Shown here: in pieces, positions 25,476-36,714 of the stretch | Layout: the number at the start of each line of letters is the position of its first letter | Numbering within the stretch: position 1 is the first letter of the stretch | Assembly (NCBI GenBank): GCA_937976095.1 | Contig: CALJSV010000128.1 | Location: 1 to 36,714 of the forward strand | DNA: 36,714 nucleotides | Reading direction: 5' to 3' | Source of the DNA: an uncultured Clostridia bacterium | Lineage (GTDB): Bacteria > Bacillota > Clostridia > Lutisporales > Lutisporaceae | Notes under the pieces: generated by a model | What the model was told of the DNA's origin: nothing | What the model saw: only the letters and a program-made list of their open reading frames with translations | Database searches by the model: none | Made by a program: the position numbers and the translations under genes

Positions 25476-25835
25476 CTATGCAGCTGAATCATCCCAGTAT
25501 GCTAAATTCAAAAATAGATTTATAAGCTTAGCTACTTCCTTAAGCTCTTCATCCTTTGTAATCCCGAAGTGTTTTCCAACTATCCCTCTTGATTCAAGTG
25601 TCCATAGAAAAGCTTTAGACTTAGGATATTCACTTTCATTTATAGATAGATAAAACAATGTATCTGAGAGTTTTTGATATAGTAGTGAACATTCTTTTTT
25701 CTGTTCTTCGTATAGCCCTATATCGGTAATAAGCCTTATTGGTTCAGAAATAATATATCTGAAATCTCCTGTTTCATTTACTTTGTCAAATTTGCTAATA
25801 TAATTTTTATAGCTCTCATAAAAAATCCTATACAT
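25476..25835 (-). CDS. Small helical protein, candidate HEPN-like partner of a nucleotidyltransferase
   Basis: 119 residues from the ATG at 25835, which has AAGGAG 7 nt upstream; a 22-codon in-frame extension into the previous gene is rejected. The start overlaps the stop of the nucleotidyltransferase gene by 8 nt, so the two are translationally coupled. I do not recognise a named family. The predicted structure is all-helical, and R83-GIVGK-H89 fits the R-x(4-6)-H pattern of HEPN RNases. Together with its partner this suggests a toxin-antitoxin or defence pair, but the Gly after Arg is unusual for HEPN, so the call is tentative. Confidence 0.6.
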   Translation of the reverse strand: MYRIFYESYKNYISKFDKVNETGDFRYIISEPIRLITDIGLYEEQKKECSLLYQKLSDTLFYLSINESEYPKSKAFLWTLESRGIVGKHFGITKDEELKEVAKLINLFLNLAYWDDSAA

Positions 25836-26337
25836 TATACTTCTCCTTAAATGCAGAAAGATTTCTTCTAAATGCATCTTTCTTACTTTCAAAAAGATCA
25901 TCTCTATTTAGCACTTCATCAATTATCTGAAGGATAAGCTGCTTATCAGAGATTTCAATAAGCTTATCTATATCTTCTATATCTTTTCCTGCCATTCTTA
26001 TTATCTTGCTTACAATAATGTCTTCTCTTGAGAGAACATATATTTGCAGATAACTAAACTCTTCAAGCTTCAAAGCTCTTTCTTTGTACTTAGGTGATAC
26101 CGCTGCGCTTTGGTATTCCAGTATATCATAATCACGCAAGTGAACAAATACCTTGCCCAGCTTGGCTGAATAATCTAAATCAATAAAATCAAAGTCCTTT
26201 GTAGCTCTATCCGTGTATTTGCCAAGCAGGCATGCAGAGCCTCCTAAAAAATACATCGGAAATGGTTCGACTCCAAATAGCTTTGCCACCTGTTCCATTT
26301 CATAGATAATTTCTGCCATTTCTTGATACAAAGACAT
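25828..26337 (-). CDS. Nucleotidyltransferase-fold protein (DUF6036-like)
   Basis: 169 residues from the ATG at 26337, preceded by GGAG about 8 nt upstream; a GTG three codons earlier is possible. The fold signature is clear: GGSACLLG (about 32-39) followed by ATKDFDFID, whose D-x-D would bind metal. A helical C-terminal part follows. Related minimal nucleotidyltransferases act as antitoxins that modify a HEPN toxin (MNT/HEPN), or as AbiEii-type toxins. Here it is the first gene of a two-gene unit downstream of a Wadjet operon, with its own extended -10 promoter. Confidence 0.8.
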   Translation of the reverse strand: MSLYQEMAEIIYEMEQVAKLFGVEPFPMYFLGGSACLLGKYTDRATKDFDFIDLDYSAKLGKVFVHLRDYDILEYQSAAVSPKYKERALKLEEFSYLQIYVLSREDIIVSKIIRMAGKDIEDIDKLIEISDKQLILQIIDEVLNRDDLFESKKDAFRRNLSAFKEKYNV

Positions 26338-26343
26338 GTGCTT

Positions 26344-26402
26344 CACTCCAAAACATTCTAATTATATTTATTATAGCACAATGTATGTTTGTCTATTAAT
26401 AC
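26344..26402 (-). repeat. Duplicated promoter segment, copy A (nucleotidyltransferase promoter)
   Basis: 59 bp matching copy B (26882-26940) at 47 of 59 positions without gaps, offset 538. It carries a perfect TATAAT on the minus strand (26375-26370) with an upstream TGTGC that makes an extended -10, and the shared GTATTAATAG near the -35 position. It drives the nucleotidyltransferase gene. Confidence 0.75.
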
Positions 26403-26438: not shown

Positions 26439-26750
26439 TTATCCTAATTTCGCAGTCTTTATTACTCTGATTTCGACGTCTTGCTTCTCTACCTTAGCTG
26501 CTATATCATCAACTTTATCTTCAAGTATATTAAGCTTCTCATACACTGCTTTATAGCCATCAAGAGCAGCTTCTACCTTTGGCTTTATGTCATTTTCTAA
26601 ATTTATCACTTGCTTAGATAGAGTATCTATTTTCCCATTTACTTCAGTAAATTTTCCGTTTACTTCTGCAAACTTTCCGTTTACTTCTGCAAAACCTTGC
26701 TTCACCTCAGAATACAATTTTTCAATTAATTCAAACATTTTATCTTCCAT
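26439..26750 (-). CDS. Small coiled-coil protein with seven-residue tandem repeats
   Basis: 103 residues, almost wholly predicted coiled coil. Three tandem seven-residue units (FAEVNGK, FAEVNGK, FTEVNGK, then IDTLSKQ) at about 20-45 are encoded by nearly identical 21-bp DNA repeats (about 26625-26695). There is no signal peptide or membrane segment. Similar short proteins of unknown role are frequent in clostridia and some phages. It lies between the Wadjet operon and the nucleotidyltransferase pair, with a TATAAT of its own about 50 nt upstream. No function is assigned. Confidence 0.75.
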   Translation of the reverse strand: MEDKMFELIEKLYSEVKQGFAEVNGKFAEVNGKFTEVNGKIDTLSKQVINLENDIKPKVEAALDGYKAVYEKLNILEDKVDDIAAKVEKQDVEIRVIKTAKLG

Positions 26751-26998: not shown

Positions 26999-28288
26999 TC
27001 ACTTAGCAATTTCACTAATATCCTCAATCAACTTATCAATAAGCAGCTCCTGATAGCCTGCATACCGCGTGTCTTTTATGGTAATTGCCAGCTCCTTCAG
27101 CATTTCGTCATTGACTTTGTCAAGCTTGCTTAGCCTTAGTTCACTCAGTCTTTTATCTGACTTGGCCTTAAGATAGCTCTGGTCGTCATAGCCCCACAGC
27201 GTCAGCTTTTCTTTGTATCTTTCCTTCAGCTTGTTGGCTATTGTCATTCCCTCGGGATCAAAGTCTCCCGAGTAGTATATCTGGCACCCATCCTTATAAA
27301 GCATATCCAGAAGCATTAGAGATGCTACCTTTATTTGTCCATAGGTGCATACCAACGCAGGCCTTAGCTCCTTTGTCCTTTCCGATATCTCTGCAAAAAC
27401 TGCCGGGTTTTCAAAAACAAAGACCTTGCCTGTCGGACTTGAGGTTTTGTCTATTTCACTAAGATTCAGCAGACTAAGCATAAGAACCTCTCCTGACTCA
27501 TAGAAGCCTAGCCATCCCTTATGGACAATCCCATTTTTATATCCATTTATACCACAGCACACTGTAAAGTTAGATATCTCATCCTTAATAATTCCCGCGG
27601 CATAAAGAAGCTCAAGCCTTTCTTCGGCATTCTGAGGGTACGGTCTTTGAAGCACATAGCATATTGCATGTATTAGAAGCTTGCCGCACTCAGTACCATC
27701 ATCAAAGGTATGAGGGTTTTTGCTGACCTCTGAGGAAAACACTGCAAGACGTGAAGTCTTACCCTCCCATGCAGGCAGGGAGTTTATGGCATTACAGACA
27801 TAATATAAGCTGCCTCTCAAGTCCTCCCTTGAGCTTTCATACCTCATCATAATTGTTCTATATGCATTGTCCTTAGTATCGAGGGTATTACCAAGCCAAG
27901 CTCCAGCCCGGCTATCCTTATAGTCGTTTATTATCTCAGCAAAAAAACTCTCTCTCAAAGAATCGGCATGCTCCTGCTGTGCCTTCTTGGAAATCATTTT
28001 TTCTCCAAAATAGCCCTCAAGTATATCCACAAATTCAAGCTCTGCAAACCTGGTATGCTCCAGGGCAGCAATAACGCTTTTGATACTTATGGTGACAGAG
28101 TCACTGTAGCAGTTTCTCCTGAGAAAGCCAGTCAGAGCTTCCTTTTCAAGCTCAGACAGCTCGTTCAGCTTTATGCTTCCTCCAAGCTTTCCCAAGGACA
28201 AGTACTTTTCTCTGATTTTTTCAAAGGCTCTATTAAAGCCTCTGTTTCCCTTAAAGTACTTTATACATTCCAGCAGCAGCTTATCCAT
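26999..28288 (-). CDS. jetD: Wadjet type II JetD nuclease subunit (TIGR02679, Toprim)
   Basis: 429 residues from the ATG at 28288, which overlaps the jetC stop by 8 nt; an ATG five codons earlier lacks a ribosome site. The N-terminal and middle regions match the TIGR02679/DUF3323 type. The C-terminal third is Toprim-like (DUF2399): the acidic pair in VFENPAVFAE and the metal-binding D-F-D in SGDFDPEG at about 342-344. In studied Wadjet systems JetD is the topoisomerase VI-like nuclease that cuts circular plasmid DNA after loop extrusion by JetABC. It is the last gene of the operon, with no clear terminator after it. Confidence 0.92.
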   Translation of the reverse strand: MDKLLLECIKYFKGNRGFNRAFEKIREKYLSLGKLGGSIKLNELSELEKEALTGFLRRNCYSDSVTISIKSVIAALEHTRFAELEFVDILEGYFGEKMISKKAQQEHADSLRESFFAEIINDYKDSRAGAWLGNTLDTKDNAYRTIMMRYESSREDLRGSLYYVCNAINSLPAWEGKTSRLAVFSSEVSKNPHTFDDGTECGKLLIHAICYVLQRPYPQNAEERLELLYAAGIIKDEISNFTVCCGINGYKNGIVHKGWLGFYESGEVLMLSLLNLSEIDKTSSPTGKVFVFENPAVFAEISERTKELRPALVCTYGQIKVASLMLLDMLYKDGCQIYYSGDFDPEGMTIANKLKERYKEKLTLWGYDDQSYLKAKSDKRLSELRLSKLDKVNDEMLKELAITIKDTRYAGYQELLIDKLIEDISEIAK

Positions 28289-31200
28289 ACTGCATTTCCC
28301 CATTCGTAATTAACTGTTTTACTTTTCCGTTCCATCTATATCTTATGACTGTAACAAAATTCGCATTGTTCGGTCTTACCAACTCACAGATAGATAGAGA
28401 CGGAACAGTGTCATAGTCTCCCCACAGCACCTGAGAATTGATTACATAGTTCAGCTTAAGCTCGTTTAGTAGCCTGAACATATCCTTTATATTGTTTTCA
28501 TCAACTCCGGCAAAGGCTTCATCCAATGATATCACTCTAGGACAGTCCTGCCTTCCACCTTCATATCTTGCATATACAGCAGCAAAAAGCGGCACATACA
28601 TAGCCATTGCCTTTTCACCGCCACTGAATCTGTCAAAGGCATTGTTTGTAAGCTCTTTTTTTGTTTCTCCTGTTTTTTTGAAAAACAGCTTGAATTCAAA
28701 CCACTTTCTGTAGTCCAGTATTTCCTTCATAAAGGTATGAAAGCTTTGTACCTTTCCACTTTCCTCGGCAAGCCTCTTGGCTTCTGCAATTTTTGAGCGG
28801 AAATGCTCTGACAATCTGTTGAGATCCTCTTCTTTCAAAAGACTTCCATCATGCTTCAATAGCTGCACCAGCTCCTGTGTATCAAGCTGACCTTCGCTTT
28901 CCGCCTTCTTGCTTTTCCAGTTAAGGCTGAAGGATAGCCCGCTGGAGGTATCCATTGACTCCATAAGTGAATTCATTTTGTCTACCCATAGCTCACTATG
29001 AGATATTCTTGACCTTATTTTTCTGCTTATATTCTTTGCCAGCACATCCTCAAAAAGCTGTCTGTCGTTTTCCCTTAAGAGCCTTTCATTGTCGCTTATT
29101 GCTTCTTCTATCATTTCCATAAGCTTATAAAAATTTACCTGCTTGCCTCTTATACGCCCTGTGATTTCAAGACGCTTCTGGGCTACCATGGCATTTATTG
29201 CTTCTTCACCTTCTGTGTTAATTTTATTTTCAAAAATATAATCAAGCTTCAGATTGTATTCTGTCATGTAATGCTTGTTTTCATTATATTTTTCAAAGAT
29301 ATATCGGGTAAGATCCTCTCTGTTTTTTGTAAGATAGTCATTTCCGGTTTCCTTCAAAATATCCTTTGCCTGCTTATACCTATCAATCAACTCAACAGCC
29401 CCATAGACATATCCAAGATTGAATTCCGCTTCAAAGCCATATCTGTATATTTCAAGCAAAGCATCCTTTTTTAGTTTAAGCTCCACCAGGCTGTACAGCT
29501 CCGTCTTCATCCTCTCGTATTTTTCCTTGCCTGCTGCTCCTTTTCTTCCTTCCTCAAGTATTTTATCCGGAAGCACTCTTAATAGCTCTAGGCATTCATT
29601 GATCTCTCTTTTTATTTCCTCATAATCCGAAAGCTTAAGCTGTTGGTTGAGATTGTCAAGACTGAGCTTGGCTTCTCTTTGTCTTCTTTCGATGGCATTA
29701 AGATCGTATAGTGCTTCCTCCAGATATTCTTCCAGCTTTTCTGCATTTTCCTTAAGCATATTTATATATTGTGCAGTATGCAGAAGCTTTCCATGAAGAG
29801 ACTCCAGCTCATAAAGGTGCTTCCTGTAGGCTTCAAGGGTCGCTATGGCTTCGTTGTATACATCTATCTGCGGAGACAGCTCTATTCCTCTGGTTGACTC
29901 ATAGGCTCTTTCCCTTGCAGCTCTGAGCTCTGAGTAGGCTTTCCTTTCTGCGGACTCCTTTTTGGTTACATCTTCCTCACCCTTTTTTGCATCAAGGTGA
30001 GCCTCCTGCAAGCATTTAAGAGTAGCCTCAATATCGGTTTTATCCGGGAAGCCTTCGATCTCTTGCTTCAGCACCAAGAATCTGCTATTGACTTTCTCTA
30101 TTTCCTTTTCTACTCCAGAAATTCTATCCCCAAGCTCAGCCCAATCCCTATTAAGATTCTCTATCATTTCCTGTTTATAGCGTTTGCGTGCTGCACCACC
30201 AATGAACTTCGGCAAATAGCTCTGTGTAGCCTTTCCTCTTAATATTCCAAAGCCATATTCACCTTCGGGCTTTATAAATATTGCGCCGTCATCCTCATTA
30301 AGCATTATGCTTCTTAACACATCCTCAACATACTCCAAGGCTATCTGATGCAGCTCGGTTTTATCTACTCTTAGGATAGCCGACAGGTCATGACTTAAAA
30401 GTCTTGGAGATGGGAACAAATACTTATCAGCCATAGAGCTGTCCATTTCCAGCACCTGCTGCTTATACTTTTCCGGCACAATCAATGCATCCAGAATGCC
30501 TATATCCAGCAATGCTTCTTCTATCCTTCCCTTTTCGCCTTCAGTAAGCTCCTTGCTAAAGTCTAAAGCCATATATAAAGGAACATAGGGAATTCCTTCT
30601 TTTGCAAGCCTTTCTCTATTTAGTATTACCTTTGGATCTCTCTGTGGCTCTGGATCTTTTTTGCCTTCCCACTCTTTTATCTGAGCTTTTAGCAGCTGTT
30701 GCTGATCCTTAAGCTGCTTTTTTTCGTGCTCCAAGGTGATATTTTGTTTGTTAAGTATACTCTCATAAAAGTTGTATTTAGCACGCAGCACCCTGTCTAT
30801 ATCATAGAGGCTGGTGCTTTCCCCATAGCTGTTTATCTGTCTTGTGACGCTTACCATATCCTCATCCTGCATCAGCAGCTCTGTATTATTTCTATTCCAG
30901 CTGTGTACCTTTTCTATTAGCTCTTCCTTTATTTCCATAAGGAAAACCCTTGCTTCATCATGCTTTTTCTGCTTTGCCGTCAGGTCATGCTTTGCTCCTT
31001 CAAGCTCAGCAAGTACTCGATCGTATTCTTTGTTTTTATATTGTTCCTCATTCAAAGCCTTTTGAGCCTTGGACAGCTTTTCTCCATAGGTATTCAGCCC
31101 GTTTTTTACATAGCCAAAGCTGTATTCTTTATTAATGTCCCTTAGAAGCTCTTCTCTCACAAAGCTTTGCTCATGAAATTTGAATTCTTCTGCAGCCTCA

Positions 31201-32387
31201 TCCATGTCGTACAGCTGCCTCTGGACTTTGTCCTTCTGGAGCAGCTCTTCATCCGCAGCCTTTTTAAGCTCAACTTGAAGCCTGCGTTCCTCTGCTTTCT
31301 TTTTGTCTATCGCTTCTTCCTTGTGTTTTTTCTGCTCTGTAAGCTCTTTTTGAGCTTCTTCTATTTCGTTGATTTTTTCCTTTATCTGCACGCTGTCGTG
31401 CTTTTCTAGCTCCTTGCGTTTTTCCTCCATAGCTTTTCTTTGAAGGGTCAACTCCTGTACATTTTCCTCCGCCCCTTCAAACTCTGCTTTGCACAGCTCT
31501 ATATCCTTATTAAGGTTCTGCTTTTGCAGCTTTAGCCTTTCCACCTCATCCTGGTGCTTTACAAAGTCCTTTGCTTTTTCGTATAGCATAAACCGATTGT
31601 ATTGGTCATAGCTGTTTCTCAGCTTTAACCCTGCCTTTTTGCTCTCTATCAGCACGTCTAATCTACTTTTAATGCCATCCATATGCTCAATGGCTTCTGA
31701 CATTGGCCTCAAGTCATCATCAGACAGCGGCTGCAAGGAGTTGTTCATTATCTCATATACCACAGTAGGCTTAAATTCCTTTGAAAGCTTGGGTGTCCTA
31801 AGCTGCACCAGAAGCTTGATAAGCTCATCGTACTCGTCAATGTCAGGAAAACCAAAGAGCAGATCATTAACCAGCTTCATATATTCCTTCTGACCGTTTG
31901 CAACCGTTCCTCCGCTGCCTATTCTGTTTCTTAGCTCCTTCTGAGTCAATGGTACCTTTTCGCCAATATCCTTATAAAGTAGAAAGTCCCTACCTATTCT
32001 TCTGCCGTCTGTAATGCAAAAGCCCCAAGAGTCAAGGCTCTTGCCTCTTGCTGCCTTTAAGCCCATTCCTATGGTTATGAAATTTTCTGTCTTTTCCTTC
32101 ATAAACTCCATAAACAGGTAGCCTATGCTTTCATCCTTTCCGTTTTCATCCTCACCCAGAAGATAATTTTCCATCTTTCTTGCCTTTGAGCCAAAGGGGT
32201 CTAGTCTCTCAGGGCTTTTGTTGCCATCCAGCAGCAGTGGTATGAAGCTTTGCATGGTTACTGATTTACCTGAGCCGTTGGTGCCTCTTAAAAGCATCCT
32301 TCCCTCTGAGAATTGAAATTCTTCTTCATCGTAGTACCAAAAGTTAACAAGCCCTGCTCTATTTATTACCCATTTGTTATCCTTCAT
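28281..32387 (-). CDS. jetC: Wadjet type II JetC, SMC-like (MukB-type) ATPase (TIGR02680)
   Basis: 1368 residues from the ATG at 32387, with AGGAG 9 nt upstream; a TTG one codon earlier is possible. Head halves lie at both ends: Walker A GTNGSGKS at 35-42, and near the C-terminus the signature FSGGEKAMAM (about 1254) and Walker B VISLDEAFAGVD (about 1285). Between them run two long coiled-coil arms around a central hinge region (about 540-720), rich in Glu/Lys/Leu. The protein is expected to dimerise and extrude DNA loops using ATP. It overlaps jetB by 11 nt and jetD by 8 nt. Confidence 0.95.
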   Translation of the reverse strand: MKDNKWVINRAGLVNFWYYDEEEFQFSEGRMLLRGTNGSGKSVTMQSFIPLLLDGNKSPERLDPFGSKARKMENYLLGEDENGKDESIGYLFMEFMKEKTENFITIGMGLKAARGKSLDSWGFCITDGRRIGRDFLLYKDIGEKVPLTQKELRNRIGSGGTVANGQKEYMKLVNDLLFGFPDIDEYDELIKLLVQLRTPKLSKEFKPTVVYEIMNNSLQPLSDDDLRPMSEAIEHMDGIKSRLDVLIESKKAGLKLRNSYDQYNRFMLYEKAKDFVKHQDEVERLKLQKQNLNKDIELCKAEFEGAEENVQELTLQRKAMEEKRKELEKHDSVQIKEKINEIEEAQKELTEQKKHKEEAIDKKKAEERRLQVELKKAADEELLQKDKVQRQLYDMDEAAEEFKFHEQSFVREELLRDINKEYSFGYVKNGLNTYGEKLSKAQKALNEEQYKNKEYDRVLAELEGAKHDLTAKQKKHDEARVFLMEIKEELIEKVHSWNRNNTELLMQDEDMVSVTRQINSYGESTSLYDIDRVLRAKYNFYESILNKQNITLEHEKKQLKDQQQLLKAQIKEWEGKKDPEPQRDPKVILNRERLAKEGIPYVPLYMALDFSKELTEGEKGRIEEALLDIGILDALIVPEKYKQQVLEMDSSMADKYLFPSPRLLSHDLSAILRVDKTELHQIALEYVEDVLRSIMLNEDDGAIFIKPEGEYGFGILRGKATQSYLPKFIGGAARKRYKQEMIENLNRDWAELGDRISGVEKEIEKVNSRFLVLKQEIEGFPDKTDIEATLKCLQEAHLDAKKGEEDVTKKESAERKAYSELRAARERAYESTRGIELSPQIDVYNEAIATLEAYRKHLYELESLHGKLLHTAQYINMLKENAEKLEEYLEEALYDLNAIERRQREAKLSLDNLNQQLKLSDYEEIKREINECLELLRVLPDKILEEGRKGAAGKEKYERMKTELYSLVELKLKKDALLEIYRYGFEAEFNLGYVYGAVELIDRYKQAKDILKETGNDYLTKNREDLTRYIFEKYNENKHYMTEYNLKLDYIFENKINTEGEEAINAMVAQKRLEITGRIRGKQVNFYKLMEMIEEAISDNERLLRENDRQLFEDVLAKNISRKIRSRISHSELWVDKMNSLMESMDTSSGLSFSLNWKSKKAESEGQLDTQELVQLLKHDGSLLKEEDLNRLSEHFRSKIAEAKRLAEESGKVQSFHTFMKEILDYRKWFEFKLFFKKTGETKKELTNNAFDRFSGGEKAMAMYVPLFAAVYARYEGGRQDCPRVISLDEAFAGVDENNIKDMFRLLNELKLNYVINSQVLWGDYDTVPSLSICELVRPNNANFVTVIRYRWNGKVKQLITNGEMQYG

Positions 32388-33543
32388 CAATCATCACTCC
32401 TGTTTCTGAGGGCGTAAAGTCCTCCGGATAGCTTCCTATTACTTTTCCAGCAAGTGGCATTATGTTGACCTCTTCTCCATCCTCCGTCAGAGCAAGCATC
32501 AAGAAGTCCTCCATGTATTTTATGATTTCTTCTTGTACACCCTCAGGACTCATTTCTCTGTATTCCTTGCTCCACCCTCTGATATTGGCATTTCTCACCT
32601 CTCTAAGAATGCTTTCAAATTGAGCCAAGGAAAGAGTGACAACATCATTTTCCTGCCTTATCAGCAGACCTTTATTAATCGCCTCTACTATTGCAGCATT
32701 GGTCTGCAATACTATTTCGCTTATTGCTTTGGTTTCAGGAAATGTGCTTTTATAGTTTTTATCACTGCCCAGCACCATAAAGGCTCCATTTTTGTGAACA
32801 TGGAGGCTGCAGCCCAAGTACTTCTCAATATCTGATTGCAGCATATTCCTATAATTCTTTATATACAGGTAGTCTCCATCCTCGTCATCACCCTCACGAT
32901 ATACCGCCGGAGACATTATTAGGCGTCTGTAAACTCTGTTTCTTCTTATTATTCCCTTGTCCTTTTCTATATCAAGCCACTCTTCGTTTTCAATATCCTT
33001 ATAGCTGCTATAGTTCATGATATTGCCGGTGAAGCTTCTTACAAAATATCTCGATATCCCGCTGTTCTCGTACAATATTTCTGCATCATGGGCAGCTGCA
33101 AAGCTTTGCTCGTCCCCGTCATTTATGTTTATAAGTCCCAGCTCCTGAGCAACCCGTAGCACCTTTATCAGGTATCTTCTGTGTCTGTATAGTGTCCAGT
33201 CGACCTTCTCGTCTCCCGGACAGCTTCCCTGTATAAACTCAGTTATCTCTGACAATACAAATTGCTCTCCTCTGTCTCTGTCCTCCAGAAACATCAAAAG
33301 CAAGCAAAAAAATATATACTCCAGCTTATTGGAGAAGTCTCTGATGCCCATCCATGACTCTGCCTTCCCTGGAACCTTTTCCAGCTTTATAAGATATGGA
33401 TTAACAAGCACCTGGTAGCCCAGCTTCTCTGTTATAAAGCTTCTATAGCCGGAAATCGAGTCCTTGATGCTATAATAAAGCTCTTTGTCATCATCTTTAA
33501 TTATCCAATAGCTTTCAAGCAGCTGCTCAAGCTCCTTCATCAT
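32377..33543 (-). CDS. jetB: Wadjet type II JetB, MukE-like subunit (TIGR02678)
   Basis: 388 residues, in line with TIGR02678. It is mostly winged-helix/helical, with no catalytic motif. In Wadjet complexes the B subunit plays the MukE role, binding the kleisin JetA and DNA. Features include EDRDRGEQFVLSEITEFIQ (about 105-123), WTLYRHRRYLIKVLRVAQELGLI (about 136-158) and MSPAVYREGDDEDGDYLYIKNYR (about 210-232). The ATG is 8 nt after the jetA stop, with GGGGAG before it; the end overlaps jetC. Confidence 0.92.
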   Translation of the reverse strand: MMKELEQLLESYWIIKDDDKELYYSIKDSISGYRSFITEKLGYQVLVNPYLIKLEKVPGKAESWMGIRDFSNKLEYIFFCLLLMFLEDRDRGEQFVLSEITEFIQGSCPGDEKVDWTLYRHRRYLIKVLRVAQELGLININDGDEQSFAAAHDAEILYENSGISRYFVRSFTGNIMNYSSYKDIENEEWLDIEKDKGIIRRNRVYRRLIMSPAVYREGDDEDGDYLYIKNYRNMLQSDIEKYLGCSLHVHKNGAFMVLGSDKNYKSTFPETKAISEIVLQTNAAIVEAINKGLLIRQENDVVTLSLAQFESILREVRNANIRGWSKEYREMSPEGVQEEIIKYMEDFLMLALTEDGEEVNIMPLAGKVIGSYPEDFTPSETGVMIDEG

Positions 33544-33551
33544 TTTCTCCC

Positions 33552-35027
33552 CTATTCAAACACTATTATATAGTGAGGCATTTCAAAGCTTCCATCTGTG
33601 CACTCCAGCACACAGCGCCCACTATCCTCTGCCTCAATAATGTGATATACTCTTCCATCCTCTGTCTTGGCTTTTTTGTCTGCATTAATGAGGCCTTTAC
33701 CTAACCATCTCAGAAAAGCAGCCCTTACATGGGCGTCTATAATCGGAAGGCTTGCAAAGTCTATTTTGCCGTCCTTTATATAGCTCTCAATAATGCTCTG
33801 CTCCTCCTGTCTCTTTTCTATCAGGCTTTGGAGCAGCCTTTCCTTTTCTTCCTTTCGGCTCACTATTACTGACCTTTGACTTTTCTCTCTGTAGTTCCTT
33901 ATTCTTGGCTTTATGGTTATCACGCAAGGCTCTTCATCATATACTCCGCTGTTTATGCTTTCTGTTTTTCTCTCGAAGTCATACTTTATATGCCTGGTGT
34001 TAAATATGCCAAAAACCGTAGCCGAAAGCTTGTGTGCCTCCTTAATATCCTTGCAGTTTAAAAACATCTGGCAAAGCTTTTTATACTCTTCCTTTCTGTT
34101 TGCAGCTGCATTCATTGTCTCCGATATCTGAAAAGCAAAGCGGGTTATCTTTCTTATTATTTCGTTGGTTATGTCAAAAAGCTTTGCTGACTCCGATTGT
34201 CTTCCTTCATCTCCCAAAAACCAGTACTTGAGGTTCTTCCATCTTCCATTTATACTTTCTCTTACGGCTTCTAGAGATATATTAAAATCTAGCCTAGGAA
34301 TGGACTTTTCGTACTCAAACACCTTATCCATAACAATTTTTTCAGTAGTTTTATCAATGGAGCGTATTATCTCTTCTATGGCATAGGAGTTGTTTTGTAG
34401 AGTCTTTACAAAGTCTCTGAGATAATCTATGAACTTATCCTTAAAAACTAAAAATTCATTTGTCCGCATAAGCTCATCAGCCTTCGCTCCATAAAGCTCT
34501 CTTATATAGTCCTGATAATTTTGATTTAGCCGCCTAAAGTCGCTGTTCAGAGAGCTCCACCACATACCGACCTCCCGCTCATCCTTATCTGCCATACTGT
34601 TGAATTTTCTTAGCTCCTGCTTTATTCGCTCCAGAAGAGATGGTTCAAGGGACGCGCTTTCTATGTGGAGGTTTTCAAGGCGGATTGCCATTCTCTCTAT
34701 TTCAACCGAATACTCAGAAAGCTGATATCTGAACTGCTTGTTTTTAAACTCTTCAACTGTAGCAGCCTTAGAGGTATCCTGAACAGGTATGAGGTTTTTC
34801 CATGAGACAAGCACATCAAGATCCTGCTTACAGTTATCCATGGTATACTGCGAAAATTCAGGATGTTTTTTGAGCTCTTCAAATACATCCTCCTTGTACA
34901 TATAGTAGCTCATTTTCTCATACTCAAGATAGAAATATCTTAAAATTACTCTGTAACGCCAAGCGTTATCAGCTGTAAGATACCTGGCTTCGTCGATTTG
35001 CTTGGTAAGACTTATATTTATTTCCAT
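33552..35027 (-). CDS. jetA: Wadjet type II JetA, MukF-like kleisin subunit (TIGR02677)
   Basis: 491 residues, typical for TIGR02677. The N-terminal part has a winged-helix look (YRVILRYFYLEYEKMSYYMYKEDVFEEL at about 25-52) as in MukF, a helical middle section (about 115-330) and a C-terminal region (about 400-491) that would contact the SMC heads. Kleisins close the SMC ring and recruit JetB. It is the first gene of the operon; AAGGTGA lies about 6 nt before the ATG. No convincing sigma-A promoter was found in the 173-nt divergent gap upstream. Confidence 0.92.
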   Translation of the reverse strand: MEINISLTKQIDEARYLTADNAWRYRVILRYFYLEYEKMSYYMYKEDVFEELKKHPEFSQYTMDNCKQDLDVLVSWKNLIPVQDTSKAATVEEFKNKQFRYQLSEYSVEIERMAIRLENLHIESASLEPSLLERIKQELRKFNSMADKDEREVGMWWSSLNSDFRRLNQNYQDYIRELYGAKADELMRTNEFLVFKDKFIDYLRDFVKTLQNNSYAIEEIIRSIDKTTEKIVMDKVFEYEKSIPRLDFNISLEAVRESINGRWKNLKYWFLGDEGRQSESAKLFDITNEIIRKITRFAFQISETMNAAANRKEEYKKLCQMFLNCKDIKEAHKLSATVFGIFNTRHIKYDFERKTESINSGVYDEEPCVITIKPRIRNYREKSQRSVIVSRKEEKERLLQSLIEKRQEEQSIIESYIKDGKIDFASLPIIDAHVRAAFLRWLGKGLINADKKAKTEDGRVYHIIEAEDSGRCVLECTDGSFEMPHYIIVFE

Positions 35028-35200: not shown

Positions 35201-35581
35201 ATGTCGAGTATAAACACAAAAGCACTGGAAGAACTAAAGGATAGTAAGGTGAAGCTTTTAATTGAGCTTGGCCTGATATCACATTATCAAATGCGCACCA
35301 GCTGCATAGGTAGCTTTACAGATGAAATGAGAAGCATCAGTGAACAGCTAAGAATTATTGATTCGAAGCTTTATGAGGCCTCAGGCGCAAGTATACCTGA
35401 TAAAAGCAGTGGAAAATGCCCACATTGTGGAAGCTCATCGGAGGGAAAGTTTTGCTCCTCGTGCGGTTCTGACATAGAGACCTTCTACAGCAAAGGTGTA
35501 GAGCAGTGCTCTGTTTGCAATCACAATGTTTCAGCTGGCGGACAATATTGTATCGCCTGTGGATCAAAATTTAATAGATAG
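35201..35581 (+). CDS. Double zinc-ribbon protein
   Basis: 126 residues. A helical N-terminal part (about 1-65) precedes two zinc ribbons: CPHCGSS with FCSSCGSD (about 72-91) and CSVCNHN with YCIACGSK (about 104-123). There is no membrane segment. The architecture parallels the gene at 7397 and the next gene downstream, so these belong to a clostridial group of unknown role, possibly scaffolding or RNA/protein binding. AAAGGGGG lies about 8 nt before the ATG. The following gene starts 11 nt after its stop, so the two form an operon. Confidence 0.85.
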   Translation: MSSINTKALEELKDSKVKLLIELGLISHYQMRTSCIGSFTDEMRSISEQLRIIDSKLYEASGASIPDKSSGKCPHCGSSSEGKFCSSCGSDIETFYSKGVEQCSVCNHNVSAGGQYCIACGSKFNR

Positions 35582-35592
35582 GAGTGGTATCT

Positions 35593-36714
35593 TTGTATTG
35601 CAGCCAATGTGGAAATAAAAATTCTGAATACAGCCAGTATTGCGCTAGTTGTGGTAAGTCTTTAAGTCAGCTGCACGCTACAGGCTTTATCGTCAAACAG
35701 TCCAGCTCTTTTTGTTCCCAGTGTGGAGATTCGTTACAAGTAAATAACACGTATTGTTCTAATTGCGGCGCTTCAGCAGTCAACTATGCTTTTGAGAAAA
35801 AAAGCTCATTCCCACGAATAGATATGATTGAAAATATGCCCTTACTAACAAATGTAAAAAATGTGTTTCTTGCCCATTTAAACGACTATAAATCAAAGAA
35901 CCTATGGATTTCAGCAGCAATCTTTTCTTTTATAACATTTATTATAAATATGCTTTTTGCAGCTGCGCTAGTTGCAATTGCTATTGCTAAAATAAAGAGT
36001 GCCATAGGCTCAATTACAGCTTCCTTTGGTTATATACCTTTGGACGGCTTTTTAAATAAAAGTCCGATCCCGTTATACTTATTCAGTTACCTTCCGAGAA
36101 CTTTAGTAAAAGCATCCAGTGATATATTAGGTATGAATTTTTCCGCCAGTGTTAAGCTTACCTTTGGGTTATTAGTAATAACTTTATTACCTCTTTTTTC
36201 AATCCTGGCAGCAAAACTTATAGAAAAAAAACTGATAGCATCGAAATTTAACTGTGATAAAGATAAATATGCTTCTACCATTATTAGCCGCTCCCTCATA
36301 ATTTCGCTGATTAATACAGTTATTTCATTAGCAGCCTACAAATCAATTACTGCAGAAGTATTCTATACACAAGTTACATTAAGCATGAGCTACTCAATAT
36401 TTAGAGCATTTTTCTTCAGCTTTATTATTTCCACTATACTCCAGTTGTTAGTTGACCTTGCAGTTAAAGAAAAAAAACTAGAGCTAAAGAGGAGTCGCTC
36501 AGCCCTATTAGATGGAATTACTATAGCCTTGCAGGCTTATATAAGAATTTCTATTATAGCAGCCTCAACTACTCTGCTTTTGGTGCTTTTTATAATTATA
36601 AAGTCTGGAAGCAATGCAGCAGAAATATTGGGTTTCATGGTAATTCTAATTCCCAACCTATTCGTATACATATTTAACCTCACTGTAGGAGTTCCCTTAA
36701 CCCTAAGTTTTTCC
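35593..36714 (+). CDS. Zinc-ribbon membrane protein, runs off the window
   Basis: An open frame of 374 codons with no stop before the window end. The start is TTG at 35593, with AGGAG about 9 nt upstream and no in-frame ATG until well inside. It begins with two zinc ribbons, YCSQCGN...YCASCGK and FCSQCGD...YCSNCGA (about 2-62). At least five or six hydrophobic segments follow (for example about 115-137, 192-210, 233-252, 275-292, 318-335 and 345-365). A zinc-ribbon head on a polytopic membrane domain is common in clostridia; function unknown. It is co-directional with the preceding gene. Confidence 0.8.
   Translation, partial: MYCSQCGNKNSEYSQYCASCGKSLSQLHATGFIVKQSSSFCSQCGDSLQVNNTYCSNCGASAVNYAFEKKSSFPRIDMIENMPLLTNVKNVFLAHLNDYKSKNLWISAAIFSFITFIINMLFAAALVAIAIAKIKSAIGSITASFGYIPLDGFLNKSPIPLYLFSYLPRTLVKASSDILGMNFSASVKLTFGLLVITLLPLFSILAAKLIEKKLIASKFNCDKDKYASTIISRSLIISLINTVISLAAYKSITAEVFYTQVTLSMSYSIFRAFFFSFIISTILQLLVDLAVKEKKLELKRSRSALLDGITIALQAYIRISIIAASTTLLLVLFIIIKSGSNAAEILGFMVILIPNLFVYIFNLTVGVPLTLSFS

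Follow-up and report, generated by a model that had tools for sequence, protein, structure and literature searches.

We analyzed a window of 36,714 nucleotides that is the whole of contig C128 in a draft genome (2.78 Mb, 272 contigs, 80% completeness) of an uncultured clostridial bacterium. Four adjacent genes, jetA-jetB-jetC-jetD, lie on its minus strand, from position 35027 down to 26999 (Table 1). All four reading frames are open: no stop or frameshift interrupts the coding sequence, which exceeds 8 kb. These genes had been predicted to be contiguous and overlapping; they are contiguous, and neighbors overlap at two of the three junctions (11 bp between jetB and jetC, 23 bp between jetC and jetD), whereas jetA and jetB are separated by a gap of 8 bp. 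The likely start of jetC is an ATG at 32387, giving a protein of 1368 aa; an alternative TTG upstream, at 32390, would give 1369 aa.

Table 1. Coordinates of the Wadjet genes and of genes near them. Positions refer to the window (contig C128) unless another contig is named.
Feature	Location	Strand	Length and matches
jetA (type II, DUF2397; kleisin subunit)	33552..35027	-	491 aa; TIGR02677 3.2e-106, PF09660 1.9e-152, PADLOC JetA2 3.5e-211, PDB 9qe0 JetA 5.6e-88
jetB (type II, DUF2398; KITE subunit)	32377..33543	-	388 aa; TIGR02678 7e-56, PF09661 5.6e-102, PADLOC JetB2 9.8e-152, PDB 9qe0 JetB 5e-84
jetC (type II SMC ATPase)	28281..32387	-	1368 aa; TIGR02680 1.9e-257, PADLOC JetC2 E=0, PDB 9qe0 JetC 1.3e-252 end to end
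jetD (type II, DUF3323 + DUF2399 Toprim nuclease)	26999..28303	-	434 aa; TIGR02679 1e-65, PF11796, PF09664, PADLOC JetD2 7.8e-158
Coiled-coil protein gene	26439-26750	-	103 aa; weak coiled-coil matches only
DUF6036 nucleotidyltransferase gene	25828-26346	-	
ORF of no known family	25476-25901	-	141 aa
Two zinc-ribbon genes	35201-36714	+	
Type III jetD	contig C97, 10663-11682	-	PADLOC JetD3
Type III jetA	contig C97, 9031-10659	-	PADLOC JetA3
Type III jetB	contig C97, 8280-9017	-	245 aa; PADLOC JetB3
Type III jetC	contig C97, 3899-8287	-	1462 aa; PADLOC JetC3
Fic-domain gene	contig C97, 3131-3859		
Type I jet operon, same-genus genome	contig C59, 8724-15113	-	PADLOC JetA1-JetD1

Family assignment and conserved motifs

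The original prediction had placed the four proteins in families that, together with the gene order, define type II Wadjet. In HMM searches against TIGR02677-TIGR02680, all four exceeded the curated NCBIfam cut-offs: 356 bits for JetA with TIGR02677 (cut-off 166), 190 bits for JetB with TIGR02678 (cut-off 125), 858 bits for JetC with TIGR02680 (cut-off 463), and 222 bits for JetD with TIGR02679 (cut-off 196). These scores are far beyond chance. The PADLOC type-2 models JetA2, JetB2, JetC2, and JetD2 matched over nearly the full length of the proteins, while the type-1 and type-3 models were far weaker, and Pfam recovered DUF2397, DUF2398, the SbcC/Rad50 Walker B region, and DUF3323 with DUF2399. 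The assignment to type II is thus borne out. Neither a MukBEF/MksB match lacking a Toprim JetD nor a frameshift, the two signs that would have spoken against it, was found. A MukBEF- or MksBEF-type condensin without a nuclease does not fit, since JetD is present and the JetC2 and TIGR02680 models score best.

The catalytic motifs are also retained, as had been claimed. JetC carries the Walker A motif GTNGSGKS at residue 35, the signature RFSGGEKA at residue 1253, and the Walker B motif VISLDEAF at residue 1285. In JetD, the Toprim acidic residues E298, D347, D349, and E351 are invariant in an alignment of 16 homologues. When JetD was modeled with AlphaFold2 (mean pLDDT 92.5), the best solved structures in Foldseek were subunit A of topoisomerase VI (1d3y, E 3e-7), the Corynebacterium glutamicum nuclease MksG (8b7f), and Pseudomonas aeruginosa JetD (7til), the latter two belonging to type I Wadjet, with which the JetD fold is shared. 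The TM-scores were modest (0.2-0.45 by query length), as we would expect of two domains joined by a movable linker. Together, gene content, gene order, integrity, motifs, and the predicted JetD fold support type II Wadjet, and the observation of an ordinary, intact operon of this type is confirmed.

Comparison with characterized Wadjet systems and proposed function

JetA, JetB, and JetC align almost end to end with chains of PDB entries 9qe0/9qe1, the alignment with 9qe0 running through the middle of JetC. Their subunit names and lengths lead us to regard these entries as the Neobacillus vireti complex of type II (nvJET). Subunit sizes are the same in the two systems (nvJET JetC has 1371 aa and the protein here 1368 aa); no JetD2 chain was found in a PDB sequence search. 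A paper that cites this complex (PMC12647877, its reference 30) describes, for nvJET, cleavage of naked circular DNA in vitro and a hinge without a channel, unlike the type I hinge, which has one. It also writes the assembly as (JetC2JetB1JetA1)2, i.e., A2B2C4, so that the A2B4C4-like complex foreseen in the original prediction corresponds to the type I arrangement rather than to the one reported there for type II. The accompanying view that type II is much less studied than type I is likewise out of date, as type II now has both a structure (9qe0/9qe1) and circular-DNA cleavage biochemistry.

With type I Wadjet (Bacillus cereus Q1, Escherichia coli GF4-3, P. aeruginosa PA14, and C. glutamicum MksBEFG), the system shares an SMC-kleisin-KITE motor and a Toprim nuclease, but the type-1 models score far lower on these proteins, and type I JetC is shorter, at ~1,100 aa. 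Among clostridia, a jetABCD operon has been deleted in Clostridium cellulovorans to test conjugation, in a paper whose title credits the system with blocking the transfer of plasmids (PMC12287153). Passages of that paper compare the Jet proteins with those of B. cereus Q1 and do not give the Wadjet type.

We are highly confident that the operon is a complete and probably functional type II Wadjet. In the proposed mechanism, the kleisin JetA, the KITE protein JetB, and the SMC ATPase JetC would assemble into a dimeric, DNA-extruding motor. If the DNA is a small circle, extrusion would go to completion and activate the JetD Toprim nuclease dimer, which would then cut the DNA, with the outcome that plasmids would be lost and the chromosome spared. 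In the general Wadjet model, too, a loop is extruded in full before JetD is activated (PMC10586767). From nvJET, as the type II precedent, and from type I Wadjet, we infer that DNA extrusion, size sensing, cleavage, and plasmid defense would also take place in this host.

An intact operon might instead have another main role, such as chromosome organization in the manner of MksBEF-type condensins or defense against phages with circular genomes, leaving plasmid restriction secondary. JetABC are condensin-type proteins, and the MksBEF complex of P. aeruginosa contributes to chromosome organization, according to a review (PMC10586767). However, another main role sits poorly with a complete JetD whose catalytic acids are conserved. 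It also sits poorly with a sporadic distribution, unlike that of a housekeeping condensin: a clear JetD2 is present in 15 of the 391 genomes sampled from the class, and the single genome of the same genus is without one. We consider such a main role very unlikely.

Relatives of the type II JetD also occur on plasmids, where all seven records in this collection (H1-H7) are replicons of at least 149 kb. This pattern fits size sensing, yet it is uninformative, because there are only seven records and large plasmids hold more genes.

Genomic setting and possible origin of the operon

The operon lies beyond spmA/spmB-like genes, which are common to relatives in the family. The relatives examined have other genes on that side, and in none of them did we find, next to spmA, the window's nucleotidyltransferase, coiled-coil, Wadjet, or zinc-ribbon genes. 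The closest operon found was that of Alkaliphilus serpentinus (identities of 59% for JetA, 59% for JetB, 49% for JetC, and 47% for JetD), which has the same four-gene order, although the genes flanking the operon in the window were not found there. The order is also the same in a further genome (G042). An operon in a genome of the same family (G002) is more distant, with identities of 47% for JetB, 38% for JetC, and 40% for JetD. Since the operon is absent from close relatives at the spmA site and A. serpentinus is closer than this same-family genome, these comparisons suggest that it may have been acquired horizontally.

An operon that is decaying or silent, for example unexpressed after transfer, would be in keeping with a stretch that has no counterparts beside spmA in family relatives, a nearest found relative in another genus, and the failure to recognize a strong promoter, with only a weak, 9-of-12-base match upstream of jetA, of a kind frequent by chance in this DNA. 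Against decay or silence, the intact frames extend over more than 8 kb and all tested motifs are kept, which argues for recent purifying selection. We thus hold a decaying or silent operon to be extremely improbable and retain the reading of a probably functional type II Wadjet.

The host had been called a sporulating clostridium. It may sporulate, as it carries spmA/spmB-like genes, but its 80%-complete draft yielded no spo0A, a gene that 18 of the 22 family genomes have.

Several other genes lie close to the operon. Directly downstream of jetD is the gene for the small coiled-coil protein, and the two zinc-ribbon genes are divergent from jetA and upstream of it; a search of 21 other family genomes gave no match to the larger of these. 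The DUF6036 nucleotidyltransferase gene overlaps the ORF of no known family, and the two might form a toxin-antitoxin-like module. As candidates for extra Wadjet parts, the nucleotidyltransferase, coiled-coil, and zinc-ribbon neighbors were rejected, none of them having turned up at any other Wadjet locus that we examined.

Other Wadjet types in the genome and genus

A complete type III Wadjet is present in the same draft genome, on the minus strand of contig C97 (3899-11682), with all four genes intact and matched by the PADLOC type-3 models over nearly their full length. It belongs to the same class of machine as the type II system but differs from it in gene order (jetD-jetA-jetB-jetC) and in the lengths of JetC and JetB (Table 1). 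The two contigs differ in GC content (35.1% vs. 39.7%). Binning contamination is nonetheless unlikely as the source of contig C97, because a methyltransferase beside the operon shares 87% identity with a counterpart in a genome of the same genus (G001), and another flanking gene shares 71-83% identity with genes from further genomes of the family. That same-genus genome carries a complete type I Wadjet, so that two genomes of one genus jointly hold all three types; a search of the window's genome gave no full-length JetD of type I.

Type II and type III have previously been reported in one genome, that of Weizmannia coagulans XZL9 (PMC8954581). Among the 391 class genomes, JetD2 was detected in 15 and JetD3 in 22, the latter by one JetD3 model only, so that type III may be undercounted. 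With this one model, co-occurrence of the two types beyond chance was rejected (overlap of 1 genome vs. 0.84 expected, P = 0.59). We think it rather doubtful that both systems run here and divide the work, e.g., by the size of the circles or by obstacles on them.

The result is mostly a clean annotation: an intact type II Wadjet, plus a type III system in the same draft, in a little-studied clostridial family. Should the bacterium be cultured and take up plasmids poorly, the two operons would be the natural place to look first; having both would also permit a comparison of the two types within one cell. On contig C97, the type III operon is followed by a Fic-domain gene.
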